Assembly (NCBI GenBank): GCA_001599595.1
Contig: BCHH01000020.1
Span: 506,578 to 570,577 of the forward strand
Direction of reading: 5' to 3'
Length of the DNA stretch: 64,000 bases
Source of the DNA: Beverwykella pulmonaria
Taxonomy: Eukaryota > Ascomycota > Dothideomycetes > Pleosporales > Melanommataceae
Below, piece after piece: positions 22,823 to 30,177 of this stretch (position 1 is the stretch's first letter; the number at the start of each line of letters is the position of its first letter). A program made the translations under genes and the position numbers. Under the pieces are notes generated by a model. The model saw only the letters and a program-made list of their open reading frames with translations. It did no database searches and was not told the origin of the DNA.

Positions 22823-23845
22823 TCATACAGCAACATCATCCGCGATCTTGACAACCACCGATCCAATGCCTTTACTCTGCGTCCACGTACGATGCGCTTC
22901 GGGAACCTCGTCTAGAGTTATGGCCTGCTTGATGGCTGCTGAGATCTTTCCCTCCTGAACAAGCTTGAAACATGCCTTGAGTTCTGGCTCGAAATGAGCG
23001 TTGTCGCGTGCGATGTAAAAGAAGGAAGTTTTGTTTTTGCAAAACGGAACTAAGTTCCTCGCTAACAGTTTCGCCACTGACGGTGCAACGCTCCTCGTCT
23101 CTCCGCCTTGCAACATGTTCAAATTTCCTCCATAGCCGACGAGATGACCGCCCTCAGGTGCAAGGATAGAGAAGCTCTCGTCCCAGGACTCGAAGCCCAG
23201 TGCGTCGAAGACGGCGTGTGCACCGCCAATAGCGTTCATGGCCATGATCCAGTCTTTGTTGGAATAGACAAAGGGGATTGCACCTGCTTCCCGGAGAGCA
23301 GTGTGGTTTGACTCAGATGCGGTGCCGTAAACTTCTGCTCCATTAAGTTGGCAGAGTTTGAGTGTTGCGTAGCCGACTGCGCCGCTGAGGCCATGAACGA
23401 AGACACGTTGGCCCTTAGAGACTTTGGCGCAGCGATTCACCATCCCATAGGCGGTATTCCAGTCGAGAATCATGGTAACGGCTTGCTTCAGATCTATACC
23501 ATCAGGAACAGGGACGAGGAATTTCTCGGGGAGGTTAGCGAGCTCGGCTTGTGCGTCGTAGATGGAGAGGCAGGCAACGAGGCTTCCGGGCTTGAATTTT
23601 GAGCATCCTGGTCCGTTGACGTGGACGCGACCGACAAGGCAGTATCCGAGTGTAAGAGGAGCTTTCTTCTGCAAGGGGTAGACACCCATTCGCATGGTGA
23701 TATCTGCGCCACCCATACCGGCGTAGAGCACTTTCACTTGGACCTCTTTGGCGATGGGAGCGGGTTGCTCGGCCTTGACGATGTTCACATGGGTGTAGTC
23801 GCCGAAGCTCGAGACGAGGGCCTTGCGGATTGTGGTTGTAGACAT
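22823..23845 (-). CDS. Zinc-free MDR oxidoreductase (quinone reductase-like)
   Basis: Single exon, 340 residues, full length for the medium-chain dehydrogenase/reductase superfamily. The GroES-like N-terminal part has VKVLYAGMGGADITMRMG in place of the zinc-binding Cys/His pattern, so no catalytic zinc is expected. The nucleotide-binding domain starts with VFVHGLSGAVGYA (residues 148-160), the usual GxSGAVG of NADPH quinone reductases, and continues with GAEVYGTA. The C-terminal end includes KQAITLDEVPEAHR. A soluble NADPH-dependent reduction of enones or quinones is expected. It lies upstream of the MFS gene in the same orientation with 0.85 kb between, so any functional link is speculative. 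Confidence 0.9.
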   Translation of the reverse strand: MSTTTIRKALVSSFGDYTHVNIVKAEQPAPIAKEVQVKVLYAGMGGADITMRMGVYPLQKKAPLTLGYCLVGRVHVNGPGCSKFKPGSLVACLSIYDAQAELANLPEKFLVPVPDGIDLKQAVTMILDWNTAYGMVNRCAKVSKGQRVFVHGLSGAVGYATLKLCQLNGAEVYGTASESNHTALREAGAIPFVYSNKDWIMAMNAIGGAHAVFDALGFESWDESFSILAPEGGHLVGYGGNLNMLQGGETRSVAPSVAKLLARNLVPFCKNKTSFFYIARDNAHFEPELKACFKLVQEGKISAAIKQAITLDEVPEAHRTWTQSKGIGSVVVKIADDVAV

Positions 23846-24561
23846 TTTGATTGATGGAGACGGATGGTTGATTAGAATCTGATGATTGGAGATGAAGTTG
23901 GAGTGCTTGGTTGGTAGTGTAAATGATGTTTAAGTTGGCCATCGTGGGCGATACTTATCGAAAACCAACATGTGAGACGGGCAATCCTACATGTGAGACG
24001 GGCAGTCCTACATGTGGAGTCGGCCTATCTCATATCAGTGCGCACGAAGAGATCGGGCGCTAGGGAGATTTTCGTTGTTGTGTCGAGGGATGAGGCTGGA
24101 GTGCGGTGGAAGGCATGGAGCGGATACGAGACTCGCGCTTAGGAATGCCGAGTCGACCTGTTTCACACTAGCGCCCTCTAGTCGATGGAACGCTAAGGAT
24201 AAATGATTGGTGTTGGTTCAATGAGCTAATGAGCCCGACATCCGACCCGGGCAAAGGTCTTACCGACTCGCTAAGCATGGATCGTATTTACGCCGAACTT
24301 TTAAGGCCGTACGAGGTGGGATAACTTGGATCGAGATTTGAAGTGCATTCATTCTATCTATTCTTACCCGCAACACCCAGCATAGAAGAATTGAAAGGAA
24401 AGTGAAGAGACATGGCACCGCGAATCTCCCAATGTCGCACGGTAGGCAGAGTGGCGCAGCAACCTCGGGATGCAATGTAGCGCGTGTCAGTGCATTTCCA
24501 TACAAATCAACCTTTTTCCATACAAAATTTGTCCGTGCAGTGGCTAACACTGTGTGATGAT
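23846..24561. other. Intergenic, no supported gene
   Basis: Promoter of the MDR gene, with a short direct repeat ACATGTGAGACGGGCA(A/G)TCCT near 23970-24010. Further right there are only short frames. A weak inverted pattern near 24480-24550 was considered but is not convincing. Confidence 0.5.
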
Positions 24562-24838
24562 TGTTGTATTGATTCTACGGAGGAGCTACGGAAGAAATAT
24601 CTAGTCTTACCAAGCACGGTAGGAGCCTGCCAAGGTAGTCGACAAATATGGAAGCGAGTCACATTATATCACGGTATATCACGTGAATATCACGTGCACC
24701 ATATGATCTTGGATATCACGTGTACTGTACGCTTAGTCACATGTCCCGATTAGTCATGGCTGGATATATATGCTCGTCGATTTCCATAGCTTCTAAATCA
24801 ACTCAGTCCCTGATTTATCTCGTCAGTACGGCTAGCTG
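24562..24838. repeat. LTR-like dispersed repeat, copy A
   Basis: TGTTGTATTGATTCTACGGA and the following GGAGCTACGGAAGAAATAT match 57532-57575 with few differences. The next 90 bases align more loosely to 57576-57660. It then carries several (TA)TCACGTG units, a TATATATA box at about 24766 and a pyrimidine-rich stretch, resembling the LTR organisation at 19266. Ends and target duplication could not be fixed. It abuts the 3' end of the inverted gene fragment. Confidence 0.5.
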
Positions 24839-25193
24839 AATGGGTCTAGCCCCTGCAAACTCCTGAGGAGATATCTCAGATCTACCTGGACCAAGTTCAG
24901 TGCAGAAGTCTTGTTTATTTGGGAACTGTTGAAAGTCTAGTCAGATAAAGGCCTACTGGACGAATCAAAGGGTTGTTTTGAATTACCTGCTCTACGCAAC
25001 CCATGAGGCCAACAGGAAAGTCCGGCTCGAATATTGAGTTATTAGACCTGTCGATGGTGTTGCGATGAGCCAAAAAGAGCGGAACATCGAGTGCGTGTGC
25101 GAAGGTCACGCCTGGGTACTCGATCTGGATAATGCTGACATGGGCGTCTTTGCGCATCAGCTCAGGAAGAGGTGTCCAATTTGCGGATTCCAT
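24839..25193 (-). pseudogene. Ectodomain fragment of a split fungal membrane protein
   Basis: On the minus strand, reading begins FSSMESANWTPLPELMRKDA and continues with HVSIIQIEYPG, EPDFPVGLMGCVEQ and, after an intron (donor GTAATT at about 24987, acceptor CAG at 24926), FPNKQDFCTELG. This fits the family pattern W-P-PEL-R-DADVSL / DP-F-A-R / YEPDFPVGLMGC-EQ / FC known to me from a large class of secreted-then-TM fungal proteins. The C-terminal half of such a protein lies on the opposite strand at 25256-26057. The N-terminus and the middle are missing and no start codon with a signal peptide is present, so this is a fragment. Edges are approximate. Confidence 0.6.
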
Positions 25194-25255
25194 AGATGAG
25201 AACTGTGAAGCCCTTAAACTTTGTTAGCTCAGCTTAAACTTGCTACGAATAGTAG

Positions 25256-26057
25256 ATTTTTGCGTACTGGAGACTAATAGTTTCAGCGCTATTAGAGCTT
25301 CTGACCAAGGTGCCTCGCACGGAATTTGCCATAACGAAGGATTTGAACATGTCAACTACGGTCATGCCAATACCCGCCGTATCTTCGACCCAGTGGATCA
25401 ATGAAGCAAAGAGCTGGGCTAAATACGTCTTAGCAACAACCCAGCTAGTGCTTGTAGACTATGCCATAGGACCTGCAGCGCGCGTTCCAATCGTCAATAA
25501 AGCTGTTCGTACTCCTGAGACAGAAGTAGAAAAGGCACTGTGTGGTGCGCAGAAGATGCGGAAATCGGGTGGTTTTGCGTATGTGCCCTCCTCAAATCCA
25601 TGTCGCAGAGCTAACCTGCCCCAGGAATATTAATCTGTTCGGCTTGGTGTTTGTAGTTGCCACCTCGGTTACACTAATTATTGTCGATCTAGGACTTCTC
25701 CACGTCTTAGTCTTTCTTAGTAGATTCCGCCGAGGACTAAGCCCCCGCCTGGACCGCTGGATTCAAGGTGGAGTTCTCCAACTACAACGACGTGCTTTCG
25801 AGGCGGAGGGGAAAGGCTCGTGGGAGAATTCGAATAACGACATTCTTATTACCGCTGATGGCGAAAATTTCTCCGAGTTGTCTCTGGCAAAGTTCCCGCA
25901 TATCTACAGAATCACCGAGACAGAGGAAAACATTGTGAAGAAAGGTTCTTCGTTCAAAAGGGGACACATATTTGTTCGCATAGAATCTGTCCAAGCGTCA
26001 GTAAAGACAGCGAAGAGCACGTATGGCAGATTGATGCATGCAATCTCCAAGGACTGA
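25256..26057 (+). pseudogene. C-terminal half of the same split membrane protein
   Basis: Two exons: up to 25578 and 25625..26057 (46-nt GT-AG intron, phase 2). The frame is open leftwards to 25256 but has no signal peptide; the first ATG is at 25349. Visible landmarks: TQWINEAKSWAKYVLATTQL, VDYAIGPAA, an EKALCGAQKMR cysteine motif, a TM helix NLFGLVFVVATSVTLIIVDL, and the post-membrane RWIQGGVLQLQRRAFEAEG. The latter is the conserved QLQR-AFE tail of the family whose ectodomain pieces are on the other strand next door. If transcribed from 25349 it would encode about 220 residues of TM-anchored protein without most of the ectodomain. I treat it as half of a rearranged gene; a truncated working gene is possible. 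Confidence 0.6.
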
Positions 26058-26146: not shown

Positions 26147-27876
26147 TCACAAGCCACAGGTGGCACAGCTCCAATTCCATATGTCTTTGATCCAACGCGC
26201 AGGCTTCCAGGCAGCACCCCGTCCTGGTCTTCTAGGCTTTGGCTTCTCACTGGACATTTCATGCAATTTCGATTGGTTTTCCGTCTTTTCGCGAGAGACT
26301 GGCGTCAGGTCAGTCTCTCCCTTCTCTAAAATGTATTCCTCAACAAAAGCTGCAAACACTTCAACATCCTTACTCGTGCTCATGGCCCCAAAACTGACCC
26401 TCACCATCCCTAGTGGCACGCCATCCATCACATCGTCTTCCTGTCCACATCGGAATCCCATCTCATATATGCTTCTCAGGTCCGTGTCACTAAGACCTAG
26501 CGCGAATGCCATTCCAGCTGGATTACACATGCTTCCTGTTCGAACGTAGATGCCTCTTTCTGTCGCAATCTGACCAAATTCTGAACTACCAATCCACGAC
26601 CCATCGCTCCGGCAGATGTTGAATGCAATCGTAGCTCCTTGTGTCCGTACATCTCCGTAATTAGAACTGGGATTCTTGTATATTCGACAGGCTGACCTCC
26701 CATTCGAGTATCTCAAAGCCATTATCCTTTCGTAAAGACATTTTGCCAGCCATCCAGTATGTCGTGATATCTCGTCAAATTCACCAAATAGCTGCTTGTG
26801 GACCTGAAGCGCACATCGCAGCGCTAAAATATTACGTATGGCTCCAGACCCATCCTCAAGCCTTTCATGTAGGGTAGCTTTCTTCCTCTCGACCCAAGGC
26901 TTGCTAATGCATGCCACCATTTCCGTTGTTCCTCCACCAAAATATTTCCTGTTCTCGAACACATGTCCAGCGGACTTCTTAATAATCAAACCTCCGAGAT
27001 CGGGAAAGCCGAAAATTTTGTAAAACGACATGACAATGAAATCAGGTGCAGCAATGTGATCGCTGAGGTTCAGTGGGCTGGTGGAAACGAGTGCCGCGAC
27101 ATCGAGCAATGTGTATGTATTTGGATGTTTGCAGTTGTTGCGGAGAGTCGAGGCCCAGGAGAGAGGAAGTCGGCGGCCGTTCATGTTGGATTGTGCTGGG
27201 TATGCGAACAGCCTTGGTCGATGTGCTAGCTCTTCATCGCTGCTGTATTGGCCTCTATCTAACGTGTCTTCAACCTCTTCATCTGACTCAAAGCAACAGC
27301 TGCGTTGTGCCAATTCCCTAACACCAACGAGACTTGTGTGCGAGTCTCGATGATAGTAGTACTCGAATCCCTTCTTATGTCCAGTGAATGCCTCCGCGAC
27401 AAGCTTGATCCCAGCTGTAGCATTTGCCACAAAAATAATATCGAAGTGTTCTTCGTCTGCTCTAAACAGTTGTAGTACTTGGCGCCTTGTCATTGCTACG
27501 ATGTGCTGCGATGTATTGGGTGACGATAGCGAACTTGAGTGAGGATTCGTCATGATAGTAGTTTCAAGCTCTCGCGAGAAAGCCTGTATCAGGGACTTGG
27601 ACGGAAGGGTTGTACCGGCATGGTCTAGATACGTTGCTCCTGAAGCTGTCAATACGACTGATCTGAGCTGCATGGGTAGGAAATATTACCATGAAGCATC
27701 GGGTATTCAGTTTTCCGGAGCTGTGCAATGCGTTCGTCGTACGATCGCGGTCTCCTAGAATCCAATTTATGGTCCGTTTTCTGCCTTAATATGGGCCCTG
27801 AAAGCGCCATGTGTAGTTTTATCGACCTCCGGGTATCTTTTGCTAAACTAACACTGCAATTGGAGGCGCTGGACAT
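26147..27876 (-). CDS. MOCO sulfurase-like PLP enzyme without MOSC domain
   Basis: Two exons, 27876..27690 and 27639..26147 (50-nt intron, phase 1), 559 residues. The fold-type I aminotransferase class V domain is nearly the whole protein. Landmarks: TEYPMLHGATYLDHAGTT (N-terminal signature, joined across the intron), NATAGIKLVAEAF, the PLP lysine in SFYKIFG (Lys about 270), GGGTTEM, and RTGSMCNPAG with the persulfide-bearing cysteine (about 434). In eukaryotic molybdenum cofactor sulfurases (HxB, ABA3, MOCOS) this domain moves sulfur from L-cysteine to the cofactor and is followed by a MOSC domain. Here the protein ends about 120 residues after the Cys motif with a basic, Pro-rich tail and WSCATC, and no MOSC. 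It could be a paralogue with its own acceptor. Confidence 0.85.
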
Positions 27877-30177
27877 AGGTTCGAGGGGTTAGCGAATATT
27901 CTAGTTCTGTATATAGTATAAGTCAGATCATGGTACAACAAACTAGGCATTCAAGATAAGCGTATACTGGTAGTTATAGATTATAATACATACCCCACAC
28001 TTCCTACTTCTTCTAATACTTCCCTTGTCCTACTGTGAAGTACCTTTTCCTTGGAAACCAGAGGAACCACGAGTACTTCTATAGATTTCTGTCGTCATGG
28101 CACATCTTCAGTCTTGCTGTGCCGCTCATGAGGCATAAAGGTGGTCAGCAATACGCCCCAAGCTTTGCCGTATTCGGCGAACTATTGTGCGCCAAGTGCC
28201 TATTCATTGTCTCATTTCGTATAATGAAGATCTTAAGCGGCGTAGTGAAGACTATCTATAGGTGGAAAATCCTTTTTCGATATCAATTCTTGCCTACATA
28301 GGCAGAGTGGCGTACAATAGTGGGGCCTATTTGGTCTACTAAAGATTTTGTGGAGCCCCTTAGTGACAAGGGCTTCGCAAAATGTGCTGGTTGCATTGCT
28401 TAGGCATGTGCAGGTTGTATCTGGTGTTAAATTGAAACTGATGTCAATCACACTGTGATCGAAAGCCAATTATTTACGATTTCCTGATATCATCAAGCAA
28501 TCAGGACATGAGCCTATGAACGAAACATGCTGTTCCTTCAGCTTCTTGTCACATTGTTATTGTGCATCAAAATTCGGATAGTAGCAAGATACGGACATTA
28601 GAGTGAAGGTGAATATGATAAAAATTGGAGAGGTGGAGAGATGTAACATCACTTCCTAATTAAGATATGAACCCTGGCTACTTGCATGACCCTGTGATAG
28701 CGTATCCCAGTCTACGTTCTGAGGCATATCCCAGGATACATAGCACCACAGCGACATCGCACCTCGATCAAAACTACATATCAAAGTTACAGTCATAAAA
28801 ATGTCGCGCTATCACATGTGCTACACTCTTGCACTTGAACCTAGCACCATCTTAAATTCTTAGTTGGAGAGCTTCTCACTAATCTCTTCTACACTATAGC
28901 ACAAATATATTATGATTTCAAATACATAAAATCTACGTTTCATACTGCGCCGTAGCAAAGTGCTACTTTGCGTGAATATACCACTGGCATGGGTCGAAGG
29001 CTTGAATGTATGGTGCAGGGAATGGGTCTTGTTTTCTTTGTCAGCTGCTTGCTTCGTCATCAATCAATGCGGCATATATATGGGTATCCGAACACCACAC
29101 CCAACGACATGGAATTGAATGAGCACCAACACGAAACTCAACCCAACGAGACCACGAATATTTCATATATCTTTCATCACTGCTTCTTCTTTCATTTGAT
29201 TTGGTAGCTAGATACAACGAAATTGCAAATGGTCTACTGCCAAACCTCCACGGTGATGAATCTCCCTCCTTCAGTGCATTGTTGCTTCGGACATCGCATG
29301 ACTGCGAGTCGCCCTCCTACCCCCGTGTGATATATTTCTATCACACACACCTTTCCTCCACTGCAATACATGCGCTACATCATTACCTAAAAAAATGTAT
29401 TTAACCTTTGTAGGAGCATCCTATATTGTTGGTTTTCATACCCTGCCTGAGTATCTGCCCAATCGTTGTACGTTCTGAACTCCAACGCCTGTGCCTTGTT
29501 TGCCTGAATAGTCTGCGGAAACAACTTTGAACAAATCAAGTTCATGAATGAAGAGAGCTTATCCGGCTAAAACCCGTTGAAATTCGTATCACTTTCCCAA
29601 ACCTGCATATGCGAACAGACAGGGCTCCTTTTACGGAGACTCAGTTTTATTGTTCCGTGTTTTGTGAGAATGTTGAAACTTTGTTCAAGCCGCTAGATCA
29701 TCATACAATTTTGTATGTACATTCAACATCAGAATGCTGTTGGCTCTTACGTTGGTCTTGCGCGCCATCAGCTCGTCGCGAAAGGCATAGTACACTGCCG
29801 CCGTCCCCCCCCTTCTTCTTCTCATAAAACCATCCACGGTCATTCTTCGGGCCACAAGAGCGTTAGAAGACCACGCGTCGCGTCCGCTCAAGTGCGCTCT
29901 TTGATTTTCTCCTTCGGATGCTGGTCATTATTTCTCTAGCGCTTGGATTTTCGTTGCGTGGACCGTGGGGCACAAAGCAATGTCGGGAGGCAAAAAGTTC
30001 TTCAGCTGGAGCATCGAATTTAATATAGCTCCTAGGGTTTCCTATATGTCCCAACACAGCCACCTGTAGCTCTGTTACATCTTAATCTTATTGATTGAGA
30101 TCTGTACCTTTCCATTCGCTTTTTGGTGACCAACTTTTCTTTACTCTTTTCGGTTGGGCATTCCATAGCCATCAAAC
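27877..30177. other. Intergenic, no supported gene
   Basis: 2.3 kb of AT-rich sequence. Frames of 60-90 codons on both strands have no common reading, splice context or motifs. A run of eight C lies near 29808. No tRNA cloverleaf was seen. Confidence 0.5.

Follow-up and report, generated by a model that had tools for sequence, protein, structure and literature searches.

A fungal membrane-protein gene probably broken by a sub-kilobase inversion and a deletion, with one break inside an LTR

Introduction

Inversions within chromosomes are frequent in Dothideomycetes and are known there as mesosynteny; simple repeats are over-represented near the breakpoints (PMC3516569). The locus considered here resembles mesosynteny, as described there, in being a probable inversion within a chromosome of a fungus with relatives in Dothideomycetes. 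It differs from that description in its sub-kilobase size, in its position inside a gene, and in having a break in a long terminal repeat (LTR) rather than near simple repeats. For the family of membrane proteins to which the gene belongs, our literature search found no paper; as the family has no name to search by, this negative carries little weight.

Organization of the locus

The window is the whole stretch of DNA that was analysed, 64,000 nucleotides in length (C20:506578-570577). It ends at the contig end and belongs to a genome assembly of 45.6 Mb in 31 contigs. The neighbours of the locus are an alcohol-dehydrogenase-like frame (22823-23929, minus strand) and a class-V aminotransferase-like frame (26147-27685, minus strand).

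The exons of the locus do not all lie on one strand, unlike those of the family loci compared with it. The first exon is missing, and the LTR next to the coding parts is cut short. The best reading, to which we give a probability of roughly 0.78, is that a plus-strand membrane-protein gene was broken by an inversion and a deletion, with the outer break inside the LTR. The features are listed below; P0001 is the closest relative, described in the next section.

24552..24664, plus strand: remnant of dispersed repeat A, truncated at either end in comparison with other copies
24662..24666: CATTA, putative left target-site duplication of the LTR, judged from its position and from 5-bp duplications elsewhere; the right partner is lost
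24667..24824, plus strand: LTR of a Copia-like retrotransposon without its last 27 bp, recognized by likeness to other copies
24825..24925, minus strand: exon B, read as inverted (P0001 about 395-424); the LTR junction cuts codon 424, and an in-phase splice acceptor lies at 24926
24926..24986, minus strand: presumed intron between exons A and B (GTAATT...CAACAG); the family has an intron here
24987..25202, minus strand: exon A, read as inverted (P0001 about 309-384, the last part of the outer domain), its start presumed from a splice acceptor
25203..25294: stretch between the coding parts, consisting of the 3' part of intron 1 on the minus strand and then of unassigned sequence up to the inner breakpoint
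25295..25578, plus strand: exon similar to P0001 (about 425-520)
25579..25624, plus strand: 46-bp intron of ordinary form (GTATGT...GCTAAC...CAG)
25625..26057, plus strand: last exon with the last membrane segment, its one hydrophobic segment, and the tail (P0001 521-653)
25349..26057, plus strand: possible stub of 220 aa, a reading frame from ATG to stop with one 46-bp intron

An alternative acceptor is possible for the intron between exons A and B and would place its end at 24937. The remnant of intron 1 on the minus strand has a branch-like site, GCTAAC, and a CACAG acceptor.

An earlier note on this DNA had described one gene broken into two halves of opposite orientation, and the motifs it named are where it put them. 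On the minus strand, PLPELMRKDA and EPDFPVGLMGCVEQ were found in the ORF 24915-25223, and QDFCTELG was located in exon B, at 24825-24934. On the plus strand, TQWINEA and VDYAIGP lie in the ORF 25256-25633, NLFGLVF and QLQRRAFEAEG in the ORF 25530-26057. Several of its limits had to be moved. The minus part extends to 24825 and not to 24839. The LTR-like repeat is a real LTR, but it occupies 24667-24824 and not 24562-24838; 24552-24664 belongs to a different repeat. The outer breakpoint, correctly placed at the LTR, falls inside the element and not beside it. Inversion of the 5' part is still the best reading; the locus is not, however, a whole gene in two halves.

Relationship of the two parts to one protein

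The last plus-strand exon, used as a query, led to P0001, the hypothetical protein K504DRAFT_408484 of Pleomassaria siparia CBS 279.74 (687 aa). P0001 is intact and has one orientation throughout, and it includes residues 1-308, which the window locus lacks. Its identity with the locus is 51-52% over the two parts; the minus part covers residues of about 309-424 and the plus part about 425-653. As the earlier note had expected of a broken gene, both fragments match the same protein, and the minus part is N-terminal to the plus part.

We tested the pieces against chance by matching them to six related proteins, with the four window pieces kept apart. Exon A was 55% identical to P0001 309-384 (E = 9e-29), and exon B had 50% identity over 28 residues (395-422, E = 4e-7). 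For the two plus-strand exons, the identities were 59% (417-522, E = 3e-38) and 48% (521-653, E = 2e-34). P0001 was the top match by bit score for all four pieces among 21 full-length relatives. Its lead was wide for the two most telling pieces (96.7 against 55.1 and 125 against 72.4) and slim for the last exon (115 against 113). These relatives had been gathered with search words taken from the last plus exon and from a different locus, so the set is biased where the lead of P0001 for the minus part is concerned. When the minus exon itself served as protein query, 34 candidates came up, none of them significant; the search missed even P0001 at 55% identity, which shows its limit.

The phylogenetic trees placed both parts in the same way. 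Outer-domain exons grouped with P0001 in a separate tree of 29 rows (support 100/98), and the last exons with the membrane segment did so in a tree of 31 rows (100/99, with the bootstrap unsettled). That the two parts belong to one subfamily, and most likely to one gene, agrees with the best matches and with both trees. From these sequences it is most likely that the minus-strand pieces (24825-25202) and the plus-strand pieces (about 25295-26057) were originally one gene.

The named relatives are fungi, including Pleomassaria, Zopfia, Massariosphaeria, Byssothecium and Lindgomyces, which we take to be Dothideomycetes and mostly Pleosporales. Pfam gave nothing for the window pieces, for four relatives or for one paralog ORF, and one paralog exon had a sub-threshold row of DUF3593 (E 0.095). 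The window pieces matched no NCBIfam model. Sequence searches of solved structures found no relative, and Foldseek with the predicted model of P0001 returned no match at E <= 0.001.

Paralogous loci and the missing first exon

Genome searches with each window part gave overlapping sets of family loci, and P0001 as a query gave 57 matches, which group by place into 18 loci. In 12 of the 17 loci other than the window locus, a single match on one strand runs across residue 424/425. Five of these 12 matches include one or two stops, which would be expected of introns or of decay. No match crosses this point in the remaining five (C19:516-518, C10:1982-1984, C1:1122-1124, C11:404-406 and C9:577-578). 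The family copy at G000:C11:404768-406400 lies on one strand, has stops in the matches of its first and last exons, and is probably a decayed pseudogene.

Eight paralog loci were compared. In all of them the N part lies upstream of the C part on the same strand, as the earlier note had supposed for an unbroken gene; the N match is weak in L053 and L057. Four paralogs, L053 (C20:327-329k), L051 (C19:516-518k), L050 (C9:1837-1839k) and L052 (C3:707-709k), have the exon order and motifs of the window locus, and paralogs are 46-52% identical to its last exon. These four differ from the locus in having their parts on one strand together with a first exon, and they belong to other subfamilies.

The first exon (P0001 1-308) holds two of the three membrane segments and about 45% of the protein, and it has no match in the window. 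P0001 matches the window only from residue 307 on, with nothing for residues 1-306. Nine exon-1 ORFs from eight paralog loci likewise had no window match at E <= 0.05, whereas later ORFs of these loci do match. Since the first exon has no match in the window, a deletion must be added to the inversion. We found no spare first exon of the P0001 type in the genome; the exon 1 that matches P0001 best, at C3:709 (52% over residues 4-155), belongs to a paralog with later exons.

A further first exon of the family stands by itself at C9:577990-578691, and no later exons were found near it. It lies within L064 1147-1977 (G000:C9:577882-578712, minus strand) and has two in-frame TAG stops. An open frame on the opposite strand (L064 from 1) lies near it; the end of this frame looks, we presume, like a SAP motif.

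The LTR and repeat A

For the LTR at 24667-24824, a search with 24440-25400 gave at least 39 other copies at 95-99% identity, among the 40 of 327 candidates that were scored. The whole LTR has 185 bp. The window copy ends 27 bp early, exactly at the junction 24824, and the other copies that were read continue for 27 bases past this point. Perfect 5-bp target duplications flank 15 of the 20 copies read, and one more has four of the five bases; the other four form two pairs with agreeing outer flanks, GAATG and GCTAC. All 20 start with TATC, and they end with GATA (15 copies) or AATA (5 copies). LTRs usually have the ends TG...CA, and such canonical ends are absent here.

Between the paired LTRs of C2:2874577-2880104 we found a sub-threshold match to rve of 32.0 bits (cut-off 32.6), followed by another, to SH3_retrovirus, of 17.8 bits (cut-off 27). 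An integrase followed by an SH3-like domain is the order that points to Copia, and we infer that the element is an LTR retrotransposon of the Ty1/Copia type. It resembles that type in its 185-bp LTRs, its 5-bp target duplications and its integrase-like and then SH3-like matches. It differs in its TATC...GATA/AATA ends and in having domain matches below the cut-offs, and the window copy is cut short. Two full-length elements were noticed, G000:C2:2874577-2880104 (in L059) and G000:C6:2292307-2299780 (in L060), both having 185-bp LTRs with the ends TATC...AATA and, on the outside, the duplications GAATG and GCTAC. The 158-bp repeat was also considered as a MITE; this was rejected in view of the paired copies with agreeing flanks and of the integrase-like match between one pair.

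Over its 158 bp the window LTR is identical to the column majority of 19 other copies, which differ from it at 1-7 positions; these 19 were chosen by their likeness to the window copy, which biases the result in its favour. The lost 27-bp tail, taken with the three preceding bases, occurs at 59 places in the genome with up to three mismatches, none of them on contig C20.

For the fragment of repeat A at 24552-24664, at least 41 other matches were found at 76-93% identity, all but two at 86% or more (40 of 233 candidates scored). Eleven other copies that were read extend in both directions, and the window fragment breaks where the LTR begins. The right part of repeat A was sought in 24825-25400, with nothing above shuffles. 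Another stretch of the window, 28945-29346, resembles sequence beside the paralogs L055 and L057 (up to 55% identity, E 1e-16, some of the matches containing stops), and is probably another dispersed repeat.

Junctions and alternative explanations

The outer junction, 24824/24825, lies both within the LTR and within codon 424, and the inner junction is at about 25294/25295, where the plus-strand similarity to P0001 falls off. The minus part stops at residue 424, and clear similarity in the plus part starts with 425, which is what an inversion requires. As the parts that are adjacent in P0001 now stand head-to-head, an inversion of about 470 bp fits best. The lost LTR tail was sought where the turned piece ends on its far side, and in three other stretches nearby; nothing rose above shuffles, and its absence from the far end again calls for a deletion besides the inversion. 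The turned segment is not bracketed by inverted arms of 11 bp or longer, and there is no repeat at the inner junction.

In 25223-25294 neither strand reads as clearly coding. On the minus strand this stretch has no resemblance to the end of exon 1 (register-free p 0.88); on the plus strand its likeness to P0001 has p 0.05-0.07 in fixed register and 0.95 register-free. The 39 bases before 25295 on the plus strand do resemble the end of the minus exon, with 6 of 13 residues alike (p 0.002 in fixed register, 0.04 register-free), a likeness that was noticed and not predicted beforehand. If real, it would favour an origin from two divergent copies, because a clean inversion does not predict it. Here, two tandem copies would have stood head-to-head, and two deletions would have produced the present locus with no inversion: one took both first exons and the shared promoter, the other the 3' part of the minus copy and the end of the LTR. 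The 13 codons could then be diverged, overlapping remnants, and the family is indeed multi-copy, with 18 loci told apart. This is the weaker explanation, and we think it unlikely. It needs a divergent pair as well as two deletions, and it would be mere chance that one part stops at the residue where the other starts. Moreover, the stretch before 25295 has no significant likeness to P0001, and a second copy of the P0001 type was not found in the genome. Inversion is preferred because the parts meet at the same residue, both are of the P0001 type, and no second such copy was found.

Wrong order or strand in the assembly, for example by a misjoin at the repeated LTR, would give a similar picture, and the outer junction does fall within a repeat that has numerous copies of 95-99% identity. 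The join, however, lies within the LTR, 27 bp short of its end, and not at a repeat boundary. The bare inner junction, the lack of bracketing inverted arms and the contiguity of the assembly also make an artefact quite improbable. Least probable of all is a translocation that split the gene and left its first exon on C9. The C9 copy is the only one of the 18 loci with a first exon alone, and the window locus is the only one with later exons and no first exon. The orphan, however, has its nearest relatives in P0008 and P0007 (50%) and shares only 38% identity with P0001, which is not among its 76 matches; two in-frame stops interrupt it, and there is no LTR tail next to it. We rejected it as the missing half on this affinity, which places it in another subfamily.

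Possible course of the inversion and its products

Under the inversion reading, the ancestor would have been a plus-strand gene for a three-pass membrane protein of about 690 aa. From the N terminus, this protein would have had two membrane segments, the strand-rich outer domain, a helical stretch, the third membrane segment and the tail. In one or two steps, a rearrangement may have taken away the promoter side and first exon, along with the final 27 bp of the neighbouring LTR. The next 470 bp or so, the end of the outer domain, would have been turned round, with the inner break at residues 424/425. As no inverted repeats bracket the turned segment, breakage followed by end-joining, or template switching in repair, would be a better fit than recombination between repeats.

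The break looks recent, because both parts are open and show no excess of change in comparison with P0001, and because the LTR was cut after its insertion and looks young. Among columns with agreement between half or more of the relatives, the window has private departures at 5 of 45 columns in the N part and 8 of 107 in the C part, and P0001 at 4 and 12 of the same columns. Three of the window departures fall at columns kept by all compared relatives. Neither part appears to have undergone long decay.

The locus would now be a pseudogene formed by inversion, its function presumably lost, and it seems to be an ordinary case of gene loss from a multi-copy family of fungal membrane proteins. It gives a recent-looking example of how such a family can lose a member through a sub-kilobase inversion with one break in an LTR and one in an exon. 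The locus could also mislead annotation, because gene finders might predict a 220-aa protein on the plus strand and a separate one on the minus strand. The case would gain weight only if the stub were expressed, or if many micro-inversions adjoined copies of this LTR family.

The earlier note had suggested that a truncated product may be made from 25349. The 220-aa frame is there, and a C-terminal stub of this size could at most be translated; no result supports its being made or kept. The comparison of changes at conserved columns showed no excess in either part and gives no ground for inferring selection on the stub. We regard it as improbable that the rearranged upstream DNA drives transcription of the remnant 25349-26057 and that this is retained as a new membrane protein with a single pass. 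In the predicted model of P0001 (27 sequences, mean pLDDT 76.2, pTM 0.67), residues 143-398 are mostly strands and 418-428 form a helix, which the break would cut. By this model the stub would consist of the helical part, a single membrane segment and the tail, and would lack the strand-rich domain.
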